64,000 nt of DNA. It comes from Naasia sp. SYSU D00057 (lineage in GTDB: Bacteria > Actinomycetota > Actinomycetes > Actinomycetales > Microbacteriaceae). Below are positions 44,933-61,097 of this stretch, piece after piece. Under the pieces are notes generated by a model that worked only from the letters and a program-made list of their open reading frames with translations, ran no database searches and was not told the origin of the DNA. Where the stretch lies: NCBI RefSeq assembly GCF_017916505.1, contig NZ_JAFMSZ010000001.1:930001-994000 (forward strand), written 5' to 3'. Positions within the stretch are counted from its first letter, which is position 1. Every line of letters starts with the position of its first letter. The translations under genes and the position numbers were made by a program.

Positions 44933-47518
44933 TCAGCGCTTGGTGGCGATGTTGACGAGGCGCGGCGCGCGGACGATGACGTTCGCGACCTCCCGGTCGC
45001 CGATCGCCCGCGCCACTCCCGCGTCGGTTCGCGCGAGCTGCTCGAGCTCCTCCGGGGCGATCTTGGGCGACACGTCGATGCGCCCGCGCACCTTGCCGTC
45101 GACCTGCAGGATCGCGGTCACCGACTCCTCGACGAGGAGCGCCGGGTCCGCCTTCCGCCAGCCGTGCAGCGCGACCGAGGGCGGGTAGCCGAGCCGCTCC
45201 CACATCTCCTCGGCGGTGTACGGCGAGAAGAGGCTGAGGGCGAGGGCGACCGTCTCGGTGGCCTCGCGGACCGCCGGGTCCGCGGCGCCGGGGCCGGAGT
45301 CGATCGCTTTGCGGACCGCGTTGACGAGCTCCATGATGCGGGCGACGACCACGTTGAACTTGAAGGCCTCGACGAGTCCGGGGGCGTCGGCGAGGAACCG
45401 GTGCGTGACACGGCGCAGCGAGTCGTCGCCCTGCTTCCAGATCACGTCCGGCGAGCTGGTCACGTCCTGGGCGAGGCGCAGAGCCCGGCTGAGGAACTTG
45501 AGCGACCCGGCCGGCGACACGTCCTTCCAGTCGATGTCGTCCTCCGGCGGGCCGGCGAAGGCCATGGTGAGCCGGATCGCGTCGACGCCGTACTGGTCGA
45601 GCTGCTCGGACAGGCGGACGAGGTTGCCCTTCGACTTGCTCATCGCGGCGCCGTCCATCTGCACCATGCCCTGGTTCAGCAGGGCGCTGAACGGCTCGGT
45701 GAAGCTCACGTAGCCCATGTCGAAGAGGACCTTCGTGATGAACCGCGCGTAGAGGAGGTGCAGGATCGCGTGCGTGACGCCGCCGACGTACTGGTCGACG
45801 GGCGCCCACTTCTCGGCCTCCGCCTGGTCGAACGCCTGCGTGTCGTCGTTCGGCGACAGGAACCGCAGGAAGTACCAGGAGCTGTCGACGAACGTGTCCA
45901 TCGTGTCCGAGTCGCGGCGGGCGGGGCGGCCGTCCGGCGTCGTCGTGGTCGCCCATTCGGTCGCGGCGGCGAGCGGGGACACGCCCTTCGGCTTGAGGTC
46001 GAGCCCCTCGGTGGGCGGCAGCGTGACGGGCAGCTGCTCCTCGGGCACGGGGATCTCGTTGCCGTCCTCGTCGTAGACGATCGGGATCGGCGTGCCCCAG
46101 TACCGCTGGCGGGAGATCAGCCAGTCGCGCAGCCGGTAGTTCTTCGCCGGCCGGCCGAGGCCGTTCTGCTCGAGGTGCGCGATGACGCGGGAGATCGCCG
46201 CGCCCTTGCTGAGCCCGTCGAACGGGCCCGAGTTGACGAGGCGGCCGTCGCCCGGGAGGGCGGTGCCGGTCGACGCGGGGTCGAGGTCCGCGAGCTCGGG
46301 CAGGGACCCGTCCTCCGGGACGACGCGGATGGCGCCGGTCACCGGCTGCGTGGTGTCGACCACGACCCGCACGGGAAGGTCGTACTTCCGGGCGAAGTCG
46401 AGGTCGCGCTGGTCGTGGGCGGGGACCGCCATGATGGCGCCCTGACCGTAGTCGCTCAGGACGTAGTCGGCGGCCCAGATCGGCAGGCGCTCCCCGTTCA
46501 GCGGGTTGATCGCGTACCGCCCGGTGAAGACGCCGGTCTTCTCGCGGTCGGCGGCGAGCCGCTCGATCTCGGTGGTGCGCTGCGTCTGGACGAGGTACTC
46601 CTCGAACGCGGCCTTCACGTCCGGCTCGGCGTCGGCGACGAGCTCCGCAGCGAGGTCCGCGTCGGGCGCGACGACCATGAAGGTCGCGCCGTACAGCGTG
46701 TCCGGACGGGTCGTGTAGACGGTGATCTTCTCGTCGCGGCCCTCGACGGCGAAGTCGACGTCCGCGCCGGTGGAGCGGCCGATCCAGTTGCGCTGCATCG
46801 AGAGGACCTTGGACGGCCACTTGCCCTCGAGCTGGTTGAGGTCGTCGAGCAGCCGGTCCGCGTACGCGGTGATCCGGAAGTACCACTGGGTGAGCTTCTT
46901 CTTCACCACGATGGCGCCGGAGCGCTCGGAGGTGCCGTCCGGCAGGACCTGCTCGTTGGCGAGGACCGTCTGGTCCACCGGGTCCCAGTTGACCCAGCTG
47001 TCCTTGCGGTACGCGAGGCCCCGCTCGTACATCTTGAGGAACAGCCACTGGTTCCACTTGTAGTAGTTGGGGTCGCTGGTGTGCAGCACGCGGTCCCAGT
47101 CGAACGACGCGGCGTAGCGGCGCATCGAGTCGCGCTGCTGGGCGATGTTGTCGTAGGTCCAGGTCACCGGGTTCGCGCCGCGCTTGATGGCGGCGTTCTC
47201 GGCGGGGAGGCCGAACGAGTCCCAGCCGATCGGGTGCAGCACGTTGAAGCCCTGCTGCCGCCAGTAGCGGGCGATGACGTCGCCGAGGGCGTACGCCTCC
47301 GCGTGACCCATGTGCAGGTCGCCGGACGGGTACGGGAACATGTCGAGCACGTACTTGCGCGGGCGCTTGTCCTCGGGGTCCGAGGTGGAGAAGGGACGCA
47401 GCTCGTCCCAGACGGCGAGCCACTTCTCCTGGAGACGCTCGAACGTGGGCAGTTCCGTGCTTGAGGGGGTCGTAACCAACTGCGCTCTCTTCGTGTCACG
47501 GCCGCCGACCGGGGCCAA
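44933..47518 (-). CDS. leuS: leucyl-tRNA synthetase
   Basis: 861 residues. Class I signatures [11 protein letters not shown] (HIGH) and AMSKSKGN (KMSKS); the editing-domain [12 protein letters not shown] with downstream [12 protein letters not shown]; tRNA-binding C-terminal domain. Charges tRNA-Leu. The TTG at 47518 is supported by TAACCT exactly 6 nt upstream; a TTG at codon 14 is an alternative. Confidence 0.96.
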
Positions 47519-47524
47519 CCGTCT

Positions 47525-47530
47525 AGGTTA
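47525..47530 (-). promoter_or_regulatory. -10 element of leuS
   Basis: TAACCT on the minus strand, 6 nt before TTG 47518, overlapping the TAA stop of pabB. Confidence 0.5.
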
Positions 47531-48748
47531 GCGACCTTCTCGGAGAGCGGAGAGCAGAGGGGCGGCCTTCAGCGCCACCTCGGCCAGCTCGTCCGCCGGA
47601 TCGGACAGGGCCGTGATGCCGCCGCCCGCCCCGACGGTCGCGGTCCCGCCCTCGACGAGGATGCAGCGGATCGCCATCGCGAGGTCCGCGGCGCCCGTGC
47701 GGGAGATCCAGCCGAAGGCGCCGGAGTAGACGCCGCGCGGTCCCCGCTCGAGCGCGGCGAGGAGATCGATGGCGCTCCGCTTCGGCGCGCCCGTCATCGA
47801 GCCGGCCGGGAACAGCGCCCGGACGGCGTCCGCCGCAGTCCGGCCGGGCGCGAGGTCCGCCTCCACCACGCTGACCAGCTGGTGCACGGCCGGGTAGCTC
47901 TCGACCGCGAACAGGGCCGGGACGCGCACCGAGCCGACGCGGGCGACGCGGCTGAGATCGTTGCGGACGAGGTCGACGATCATGAGGTTCTCGGCCCGCT
48001 CCTTCTCGCTGGCCCCGAGCTCGGCGGCGAGCGCCGCATCCTGCCCGGCGTCGCCGCCGCGCGGGCGGGTGCCCTTGATCGGACGGCTGCGCACCGTCCC
48101 CCCGGGCGTGACCTCGAGGAAGCGCTCGGGCGAGGCGCTCACCAGCTCGGTTCCGTCGAGCCGGAGGTAGCCGGCGTGATGCGTCGGGCTCGTGCGGCGC
48201 AGCCGGCGGTAGGCGGCCCAGCCGTCCACCGGGCCCTCGACGGTCGCGGTGTTGGTGAGGCAGAGGACGTAGGCGTCGCCGCGTGCGATCGCGTCCTGGC
48301 AGGCGGCGATCATCCCGAGGTAGCGGGCGTCGTCGTGTCGCCAGGAGACGGTCCCCGCGCCTCCGACGGGCGGACGCGGAAGCGGCCCGTCCGTCGCGGC
48401 GTCGTCGACTGCGGCGCGGGCGTCCGCCTCCCAGCTCTCGCCGTCGCCGAGGAGGCGCACCTCCCGTCGATTCGGATCGAACGCGAGCGCCCGGTCGATC
48501 TCCAGGAAGCGCGCTTCGCCCTCGTAGGAGATCCACCCCATCCAGCCCAGCTCGAAGGACCCGGCGTCGCCGTCGCCGCTCGGCGGCACGTCGGGGATGG
48601 CGCGGCGGATCCCGGACCCGAGGCCGATGAGGCTCTCGCCGCTGCCGTCCGTCGACTCGAGCAGCGCGGCGTTCCCCGAGGGCGCCAGCCGCTCGAACAC
48701 GTCGGCCGGGTCGGCCCAGGCGCCGAGGAGCCGGCCGGTCGTCCGCAT
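47528..48748 (-). CDS. pabB: aminodeoxychorismate synthase component I
   Basis: 406 residues of the chorismate-binding family. SRPIKGTRPRGG carries the lysine that forms the covalent intermediate in PabB; anthranilate synthase TrpE has Ala there, so PABA synthesis is favoured. NLMIVDLVRNDLSRV and FPAGSMTGAPK are the metal- and chorismate-binding motifs. It makes 4-amino-4-deoxychorismate for folate; the glutaminase PabA must be elsewhere. Divergent from pabC with start codons 11 bp apart. Confidence 0.93.
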   Translation of the reverse strand: MRTTGRLLGAWADPADVFERLAPSGNAALLESTDGSGESLIGLGSGIRRAIPDVPPSGDGDAGSFELGWMGWISYEGEARFLEIDRALAFDPNRREVRLLGDGESWEADARAAVDDAATDGPLPRPPVGGAGTVSWRHDDARYLGMIAACQDAIARGDAYVLCLTNTATVEGPVDGWAAYRRLRRTSPTHHAGYLRLDGTELVSASPERFLEVTPGGTVRSRPIKGTRPRGGDAGQDAALAAELGASEKERAENLMIVDLVRNDLSRVARVGSVRVPALFAVESYPAVHQLVSVVEADLAPGRTAADAVRALFPAGSMTGAPKRSAIDLLAALERGPRGVYSGAFGWISRTGAADLAMAIRCILVEGGTATVGAGGGITALSDPADELAEVALKAAPLLSALREGR

Positions 48749-48762
48749 AGGGTGAGCCTATG
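48746..48762. promoter_or_regulatory. interlocked divergent leaderless promoters of pabB/pabC
   Basis: CATAGGGTGAGCCTATG. Plus strand: TAGGGT (48748-48753) then 6 nt then ATG 48760. Minus strand: TAGGCT (48760-48755) then 6 nt then ATG 48748. Each -10 overlaps the other gene's start codon. Confidence 0.65.
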
Positions 48763-49563
48763 GCTGCGGAGGTCCTGCGCTGGAGGGAGGGCCGCCTCGT
48801 CCCCGCGTCCGCCGGCGCACCGCTGCTCGTGGCGGACTCGTTCCTCCTCGACGCCGGCACGGTGGTGGCGCTCGACGTCCACCGGGACCGGTTCCTCCGC
48901 TCGATCGCCAGCGCGGAGGTCGCGCGCGTGGCGGACGGGCCGGTGCCCCTCGCGGACGCGACCGGGTTCTGGTCGTCCGCCGTCGCCGCCCTGCCGCGGC
49001 AAGGCGCCTGGTTTCCGCGCATCGAGCTCGTGCAGACGCCGGCCGGTCCCGAGTACGGGCTCGCGGTGCGGCCCGCTCCCCCGCTGGGGCGGCTCGTGAC
49101 GGCCCTGACCTGGGACGGCCCGGACCCGCGCCGAGTGCCGTCCGTGAAGGGCCCTGACCTCGAGGCGCTGCTCCGGCTGCGCGAGGCCGGCCGCGAGCGC
49201 GGCGCGGACGAGGTTGTGCTCCTCGTCGACGGGGCCGTCGCCGAGGGCACGACGAGTTCGCTCGCCTGGTGGCGGGACGGCGTGCTCTGCGTACCGGCGG
49301 ACGACCTGCACCGGGTCGCGGGAGTCACGGAGGCGTGCGTGATCGCGATGGCCGTCGAGGCCGGGGTCGCGGTGCGGCGGGAGCGCAGGCGACCCGACGA
49401 GCTGGACGCCTGCGAGGTGTGGGTGCTGAACGCCCTGCACGGCATCCGCGGCATCGAGCGCTGGGCGGGCGGTCCCGCCGTCACGGCGCCGGGCGCACGG
49501 CTCGACGAGTGGCGGTCCCGCCTCGCGGCCCTGGCGCGTCCGCTGCCGACGCTGCGGCCCTGA
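48760..49563 (+). CDS. pabC: aminodeoxychorismate lyase (class IV PLP enzyme)
   Basis: 267 residues, fold type IV. VPSVKGPDLEALL carries the PLP lysine (near residue 131), and GAVAEGTTSSLAWWRDG and GVTEACVIAMA are family motifs. It converts aminodeoxychorismate to 4-aminobenzoate and pyruvate. The call over branched-chain aminotransferase rests on length and on the divergent pabB. Confidence 0.87.
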   Translation: MAAEVLRWREGRLVPASAGAPLLVADSFLLDAGTVVALDVHRDRFLRSIASAEVARVADGPVPLADATGFWSSAVAALPRQGAWFPRIELVQTPAGPEYGLAVRPAPPLGRLVTALTWDGPDPRRVPSVKGPDLEALLRLREAGRERGADEVVLLVDGAVAEGTTSSLAWWRDGVLCVPADDLHRVAGVTEACVIAMAVEAGVAVRRERRRPDELDACEVWVLNALHGIRGIERWAGGPAVTAPGARLDEWRSRLAALARPLPTLRP

Positions 49564-59912: not shown

Positions 59913-61097
59913 CTAGCCCGCGTCGCGGAGGGCGATCCGCGTCTCGAGGAGGCGCTGCACCGCCGCGTCGACGCGGGCCCCGTCGATGCGACCGTCGGCC
60001 ACCGCGGCCTCGAGCCCGTCGAGCAGCTCGTAGGGGTCGACGCCCGAGACCGCCGGGTCCGCGGCCAGCACATAGACGAGGAGATCGTTGCCGGCGTTGA
60101 TCGCCTTGATGGCGTTCGCGAGGGGGTCGGTGTAGCCCGCGACACCGGAGTGCTGGAGCATCAGCATGTCGTCGGTGACGGCGAGGCCGCGGAAGCCGAG
60201 GTCGTTCCGGAGGATGTCGTGCCACCGCGTCGAGAGGCTCGCGGGCTCCCCGTCGACACTGGTGAGCACGAGGTGCCCGAACATGACCGCCTCGGCGCCC
60301 GCCGCGATGCCGCGCGCGAACGGGACCGCCGGGCCGGCGTTCCAGTCCTCCCAGCCGATGCCGCTCGAGGGCAGCGAGACGTGCGAGTCGGCGTCGGTGA
60401 GTCCGTGGCCCGGGAAGTGCTTGAGTGTGCTGAGCACCTTGCCGCGCTCCCCCGCGACCGCCTGCTCGACGCGCGCCGCGGCGTCCTCGGGGGTCGTGCC
60501 GAGGATGCGGTCGGCGATGAACGACGACGGGTCGGCCGTCTCGTCCGCGACGATGCCGAAGTTGATGTCGACCCCGGCCGCCTCGACGAGCGCCGCACGC
60601 TGGGCGAACGCGTCGCGCGTCGCCTCCGGCGCCTGCCGCCGCAGGGCGGAGGCGGACGGGAACACGTCCTCGTCGAGCCGGGACACCACCCCGCCCTCCT
60701 GGTCGATGCCGACGATCGGCGGAAGCTGCGGGTCGAGGGTGAGGGCGCCGGTGACGGCGGCGGTGTCCGCGGCGGTCGCGGCGACGTTGTCGCCCATCAC
60801 GATGAAGCCGCCCGCCCCGGTGGTGCGCATGAAGTCGGCGAGCGCTGCTTGGTCGGTGCCCGGGTAGTGGAGCATCAGCATCGCCGCGAGCTTCTCCCGC
60901 TCGCTCATCCGGGAGAGCCGGTCGGCCGCCTCTTCGGCGGGGGTGGCAGGCGCCGAGGGTGTGGGGGTCGGGGTCGGGGTGGGCGTCGCGCTCGCGCTCG
61001 TGGGCGCGGGGGCCGGGGCGGACGCCGGGGCGCAGCCGCCGAGCAGCGTGACCGCGGCGAGCGCGCCGAGCAGGACGGAGGCGGCTCGCGATCGCAC
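59913..61097 (-). CDS. NagZ-like beta-N-acetylhexosaminidase lipoprotein (GH3)
   Basis: 394 residues. Signal peptide with lipobox LLGGC (C22) and a Thr/Pro linker, then a GH3 domain. GIDQEGGVVSRL, the KHFPGHGLTDADSH loop (catalytic His near 231) and nucleophile Asp in AVTDDMLM (about D309) mark the NagZ branch, which removes GlcNAc from muropeptides. Being a lipoprotein it would work on the wall outside the membrane. Confidence 0.92.
   Translation of the reverse strand: MRSRAASVLLGALAAVTLLGGCAPASAPAPAPTSASATPTPTPTPTPSAPATPAEEAADRLSRMSEREKLAAMLMLHYPGTDQAALADFMRTTGAGGFIVMGDNVAATAADTAAVTGALTLDPQLPPIVGIDQEGGVVSRLDEDVFPSASALRRQAPEATRDAFAQRAALVEAAGVDINFGIVADETADPSSFIADRILGTTPEDAAARVEQAVAGERGKVLSTLKHFPGHGLTDADSHVSLPSSGIGWEDWNAGPAVPFARGIAAGAEAVMFGHLVLTSVDGEPASLSTRWHDILRNDLGFRGLAVTDDMLMLQHSGVAGYTDPLANAIKAINAGNDLLVYVLAADPAVSGVDPYELLDGLEAAVADGRIDGARVDAAVQRLLETRIALRDAG

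Follow-up and report, generated by a model that had tools for sequence, protein, structure and literature searches.

Interlocked leaderless-type start signals of pabB and pabC within 17 or 18 bp in Naasia and other Microbacteriaceae

How two genes transcribed away from each other could both begin within 17 bp is the question raised by positions 48746 to 48762 of the window, the whole stretch of 64,000 nucleotides from Naasia sp. SYSU D00057 that was analysed here. An earlier note on this DNA had described the site as two leaderless genes whose divergent promoters and start codons interlock. The core, CATAGGGTGAGCCTATG, holds both start codons, both −10 hexamers and both predicted transcription starts, carries TANNNT, 6 nt and ATG on each strand, and occurs once in its own 3.36-Mb genome; with one mismatch allowed, the 17-bp pattern has 3 sites there including the core, and the control has 1. 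On the plus strand the pabC −10 hexamer TAGGGT (48748 to 48753) is followed by 6 nt and the pabC ATG (48760 to 48762), which heads the open reading frame and is the predicted leaderless start with a putative +1 at 48760. The minus strand has the pabB −10 hexamer TAGGCT from 48760 to 48755, then 6 nt and the pabB ATG (48748 to 48746), likewise heading its reading frame, with a putative +1 at 48748. Both hexamers were assigned from the sequence and from the TANNNT spacing profile given below. The pabC −10 has its first T opposite the A with which the pabB ATG begins, and the pabB −10 stands in the same relation to the pabC ATG; −10 elements and predicted start positions thus overlap reciprocally on opposite strands. 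The predicted transcription starts lie 12 bp apart in this form and 13 bp apart in an 18-bp form found in relatives. Re-reading of the sequence bore out the coordinates, both TAGG(G/C)T hexamers and the beginning of the minus −10 at the first base of the pabC ATG (48760). The plus −10 had been said to begin at the middle base of the pabB start codon; it really begins at the first base, 48748, and the layout is therefore exactly symmetric.

The leftward gene (47528 to 48748, minus strand) encodes a pabB-like chorismate-binding enzyme of 406 aa (PF00425, E 4.4e-84), for which the top NCBIfam model is TIGR00553 (PabB) with 326.4 bits, just under the cut-off of 328.4. Besides this gene, a PabB query finds two further matches in its own genome, 39% and 35% identical. 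The rightward gene (48760 to 49563, plus strand) encodes a pabC-like protein of aminotransferase class IV with 267 aa (PF01063, E 4.1e-20), which falls below all NCBIfam PabC cut-offs (at least 177 bits), its best score being 37.9 bits against a cut-off of 308. The putative identity as PabC comes from the broad family and the neighbourhood only, and synthesis of the folate precursor is probably the function of both genes. The neighbours in the window are a leucyl-tRNA synthetase gene past pabB and a VTT-domain gene past pabC; the stretch concerned is 44936 to 49563. Of 64 loci, the window included, in which pabB and pabC run on opposite strands, 61 have a leuS relative nearby and 50 a VTT-domain relative. 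With a leuS relative so regularly present, leuS may come under the influence of the leftward promoter as well. At 47518 to 47530 on the minus strand, TAACCT starts on the pabB stop codon TAA and lies 6 nt ahead of a TTG of the leuS frame, and leuS may have a start signal of its own overlapping the end of pabB.

Whether such hexamers mark starts in this DNA was read from a profile of 44 frames in the window (72.9% G+C), picked by coding-like composition and not by a gene finder. Over the first half of each frame, an in-frame ATG or GTG has TANNNT ahead of it at 6 nt in 12 cases and at 7 nt in 4, the two of the core included, and at other distances between 2 and 14 nt in 3 cases (8 nt once, 12 nt twice). 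Out-of-frame ATG or GTG codons over the whole frames gave 8 cases in total, with 2 at 6 nt and 0 at 7 nt. Both pabB and pabC thus have the signal taken here as leaderless, TANNNT 6 to 7 nt ahead of the start codon. The profile agrees with published actinobacterial leaderless signals: the first T of TANNNT has been described about 12 bp ahead of leaderless starts (PMC3160421), the motif comes with no conserved −35 in M. tuberculosis (PMC3898074), and for S. lividans the available text of PMC8079986 gives a mean −10-to-start distance of 6.3 nt and 17% leaderless genes. A further divergent pair of frames in the window, at 61097 (minus) and 61161 (plus), has TANNNT 6 nt before a GTG on each side; the two are 64 bp apart and do not interlock.

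Conservation of the core was followed in two samples of junctions. The PabC-anchored sample comes from GTDB species genomes searched with one peptide pattern and an aligned set of 20 PabC-like proteins, and consists of the best 80 of 126 loci, of which 13 have no PabB match nearby, 4 have both genes on the same strand and 63 are divergent. The pattern CATANNNTN(1-2)ANNNTATG was found in 57 of these 63 divergent pairs, as 37 distinct strings, with CATANNNTNANNNTATG in 40 and CATANNNTNNANNNTATG in 17 (best 80 of 126). In 55 of these 57 loci, again among the best 80 of 126, an open frame joins each ATG to its PabB or PabC match; in the remaining two (L143 and L161) the motif's pabC ATG lies out of the open frame with the PabC match. 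The first methionine is common to all rows of the N-terminal PabC alignment by construction, the rows having been cut from the motif's ATG. Across the 57 loci from the best 80 of 126, the commonest base reaches 35% to 100% at the free positions and 29% to 95% in the flanking columns; position 7 is C in 57 of 57 though nominally free, as is position 14 in 17 of 17 loci with the 18-bp form. The six divergent pairs lacking the pattern among the best 80 of 126 belong to Rathayibacter (4), an uncultured Microbacteriaceae (L132) and Arenivirga (L133). Cultured relatives with the interlock include Salinibacterium strains (L120, L136 and L146). In the PabB-anchored sample, 60 genomes yielded 30 loci including the window; 12 of the 30 have no PabC match in the retrieved stretch and 18 are divergent, of which 11 show the interlock, 10 of them in frame, and 7 do not. 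At L005 in this sample neither gene is in an open frame with the motif, and both look broken. The two samples overlap, at least four genomes of the PabB-anchored set recurring in the PabC-anchored set, and as the genomes are related the 57 interlocked loci are not independent. The interlocked hexamers are nevertheless conserved in close relatives (57 of 63 junctions from the best 80 of 126, and 11 of 18), which together with the sequence backs the view of two genes with leaderless-type signals and putative interlocked divergent promoters.

This conservation bears on whether the true starts could lie elsewhere, with one gene or neither transcribed from the core, starts upstream and ribosomes bound by Shine-Dalgarno pairing. 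The window stretch does contain GGGTGA, which presumably could pair with 16S rRNA. Yet no Shine-Dalgarno excess was seen for either gene over the 57 interlocked loci from the best 80 of 126, where matches reach 4 nt at most ahead of pabC and, in a single case, 5 nt ahead of pabB; the control, one shuffle per pabC upstream region and for the pabC side only, reached up to 5 nt three times, so that the matches are no longer than in that shuffle. Both half-sites are moreover retained together in 57 of 63 loci among the best 80 of 126, and upstream starts for one or both genes are judged quite improbable. Nor was an excess of −35 elements found on either side over 58 loci including the window.

The same 57 loci speak to a second reading, in which CATAGG-N5-CCTATG is an inverted repeat serving as the operator of a dimeric regulator. 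The dyad is perfect over 6 bp in the window, but between the two hexamers the inner triplets agree no better than chance pairing would have it, 0.310 against 0.302 when shuffled over the 57 loci and 0.322 against 0.306 in 30 distinct pairs (both from the best 80 of 126), and the arms do not covary. The pattern is defined by the bases of two −10 elements and two ATGs, and an operator is accordingly very improbable.

Hexamers with three free positions are common, which would speak for a chance overlap of short motifs. Four pattern lengths were counted in 299 genomes of the family taken as Microbacteriaceae, with the reversed pattern as control. The 17-bp form gave 168 sites against 26 and the 18-bp form 165 against 58, whereas the 16-bp form gave 15 against 48 and the 19-bp form 15 against 29, in totals summed by hand and with many of the chance matches coming from small AT-rich genomes. 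An excess over the control exists only at the lengths that place both starts 6 or 7 nt from their −10. Chance is refuted by the conservation at one junction, and its probability is put at practically nil. On a joined PabB and PabC tree of 64 loci made by a quick method, the three states 17 bp, 18 bp and other require 11 changes; 9 of these concern the 18-bp state, 7 being forced by well-supported branches, and 2 concern the other state. Given these repeated changes, the two spacers appear to move in step between 6 and 7, and single central bases gained or lost may have moved both at once in either direction.

Over the whole order, a 17-bp match was found in 50 of 248 genomes, 5 of them family members including the own genome. 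Outside the family the 17-bp pattern is present in 45 of 230 genomes, with 65 sites against 22 for the control, again in totals added up by hand. By eye, no pair of two known genes was recognised among 30 loci from outside the family, and open frames of at least 55 aa lie on both sides in 8 of the 30. Two of the outside loci, L229 and L231 from one genus, have a regulator-like frame on one side and similarly beginning frames opposite.

The junctions without the interlock are informative about what it requires. Nine exceptional junctions were examined, and all except L133 have superposed −10 elements (TANNNTA); in these eight (L009, L019, L023, L132, L139, L150, L153 and L168) the pabB start codon is GTG throughout. 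A GTG start is not compatible with the interlocked register, as its initial G would cost the opposite hexamer its T, and GTG in 8 of 8 superposed junctions fits a model of shared bases in which the interlock needs the A of ATG. At L132 the leaderless spacing fits both genes with starts 18 bp apart, and each of the four Rathayibacter loci has its pabC start 8 nt past the hexamer. The superposed pattern has 0 sites in the own genome, where the control has 2. The seven divergent junctions of the PabB-anchored sample without the interlock are L008, L009, L018, L019, L023, L027 and L029, and in L009, L019 and L023 the −10s overlap with no start codon 6 to 7 nt after the plus hexamer. At L008 (2713 to 2812) AGG stands at the position of the pabC ATG and the pabC half is lost, with the pabB half and its −10 intact. 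A GTG frame lies further on at this locus, with a purine-rich stretch ahead of it. A leaderless-type half is missing or replaced at L008, L009, L019, L023 and L133. The claim that mutation of either start codon alters the other promoter is too broad in this light, since only the A of each ATG belongs to the opposite −10, and L008 has lost its pabC ATG to AGG and kept the pabB −10.

The interlock is not confined to pabB and pabC but recurs at four other divergent pairs, at loci that were chosen by the motif and so demonstrate recurrence, not frequency. One representative per pair was examined with Pfam, and the remaining members were identified by eye from their length and N-terminal sequence. 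Thirty loci with the 17-bp form comprised 11 pabB/pabC junctions, 1 pair of a methionine-aminopeptidase-type gene with a small protein, 1 pair of DUF255 with a beta-lactamase-fold hydrolase, and 17 with no recognisable divergent pair. With the 18-bp form, 30 loci comprised 5 pabB/pabC junctions, 13 aminopeptidase pairs, 4 deaminase/uracil phosphoribosyltransferase pairs, 2 diacylglycerol-kinase-type/aminotransferase pairs and 6 with none. A further 20 loci, drawn from ten genomes selected for having at least two sites, held 8 pabB/pabC junctions, 1 deaminase pair, 5 DUF255 pairs and 6 with none. None of the recurrent pairs appeared among ten 19-bp control loci, of which L178 alone had frames of at least 55 aa on both sides. 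The aminopeptidase pair consists of Peptidase_M24 and a protein of 57 to 81 aa, the 61-aa representative of which matched no family by Pfam. The interlock is found at the aminopeptidase pair in six genera, at the DUF255 pair in five, at the deaminase pair in two and at the kinase pair in one. The kinase pair is seen at L065 and L066 (both at 1501) of one genus, where the 18-bp interlock lies between the diacylglycerol-kinase-type and aminotransferase genes. Names such as map, tadA, upp, YyaL and SPOR-like are presumed to apply to the genes of the recurrent pairs, and we take the Peptidase_M24, deaminase/phosphoribosyltransferase and DUF255 pairs not to encode consecutive pathway steps. The layout is thus not specific to PABA synthesis.

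The reading that best accommodates these data, and one held to be highly likely, is that the core is a bidirectional leaderless promoter in a 12/13-bp register. RNA polymerase would open one short stretch in either orientation; a rightward polymerase would use TAGGGT and start at the A of the pabC ATG, and a leftward polymerase would use TAGGCT and start at the A of the pabB ATG. With TANNNT at 6 to 7 nt and starts 12 or 13 bp apart, the two leaderless genes must share bases: in each −10, the first T would pair with the A of the opposite ATG, and the A with the T directly preceding that ATG. The transcription starts, the two-way transcription and the mutual exclusion of two polymerases are predictions from the sequence. 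As the melted regions coincide, the geometry suggests that two polymerases could not use the core at once.

That geometry is also the starting point for adaptive coupling, in which polymerases competing for orientation set a fixed ratio of, or an either/or choice between, the two genes. The conservation of the layout in 57 of 63 divergent pairs from the best 80 of 126 would suit such a function, and in E. coli substantial activation in one direction can repress the other (PMC12825309). Several observations count against it. The layout also occurs at pairs without an obvious common pathway, and basal activity was too low for competition at five of five E. coli bidirectional promoters tested, according to the available text of PMC12825309. 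In addition, the opposite start codon fixes position −14 as C, making a TGn extended −10 impossible on either side, and an extended −10 accompanies higher promoter activity in M. tuberculosis (PMC3898074); with TGn excluded and no −35 excess, both promoters are probably modest, with a likely weak to moderate output. Adaptive coupling is hence considered unlikely, and any balancing or switching of expression through exclusive use of the core is hypothetical. The proposal of the earlier note that polymerase opens one direction at a time holds as far as the geometry goes, but its corollary, a forced balanced or exclusive expression of two consecutive steps of PABA synthesis, finds no support: the same layout stands at non-consecutive pairs, and the E. 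coli basal activity (PMC12825309) was too low. Most likely the layout persists because both genes depend on each half, so that neither half can readily change; basal output would be low and competition slight. A farther-reaching view, likewise held to be unlikely, is that Microbacteriaceae have a distinct class of bidirectional promoter, a single bubble with two −10 elements, two starts and two start codons at several unrelated loci, where the choice of orientation would link the output or noise of both genes.

At this core leaderless genes and bidirectional promoters would be joined in an extreme form, with the transcription and translation signals of two genes on the same bases. The natural series of 17-bp, 18-bp, superposed and one-side-lost junctions, together with several gene pairs, offers material for testing orientation choice against expression, and at interlocked junctions start-codon annotation and promoter evolution cannot be handled gene by gene. 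No description of interlocked leaderless start codons in a 12/13-bp register was found in the titles and abstract openings of the open-licence literature. Bidirectional promoters as such are known; what appears to be new here is the 12/13-bp register with start codons overlapping the hexamers.

Like the bacterial bidirectional promoters of Warman, Grainger and colleagues (PMC12825309, PMC10268837), as far as the available texts describe them, the core has a pseudo-symmetric −10 region and a reciprocal overlap of −10 and predicted start, which would allow one polymerase at a time. Its predicted distance of 12 or 13 bp lies within the working definition of starts 7 to 25 bp apart (PMC10268837) but differs from the common distances of 18, 10 and 23 bp, which are described as preferred and not required (PMC12825309). 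It is unlike the known cases in that the overlap takes in both start codons and that the −10 elements lie side by side and are not stacked. With the leaderless genes of actinobacteria (PMC3160421, PMC3898074, PMC8079986) it shares TANNNT close before ATG or GTG without a Shine-Dalgarno sequence; those of S. lividans are reported with a −35 consensus (PMC8079986), whereas none is found at the pab junctions (58 loci). Closely juxtaposed divergent promoters are described as a common feature in M. tuberculosis, where the adjacent divergent genes prpD and Rv1129c both have leaderless mRNAs (PMC3898074); those of the core are predicted from its sequence. Sharing of bases between −10 and start codon is not stated for prpD and Rv1129c in the available description (PMC3898074), by which they are compared here, and the core does share them. 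From ordinary leaderless genes the core differs in that two units share their bases in opposite directions.
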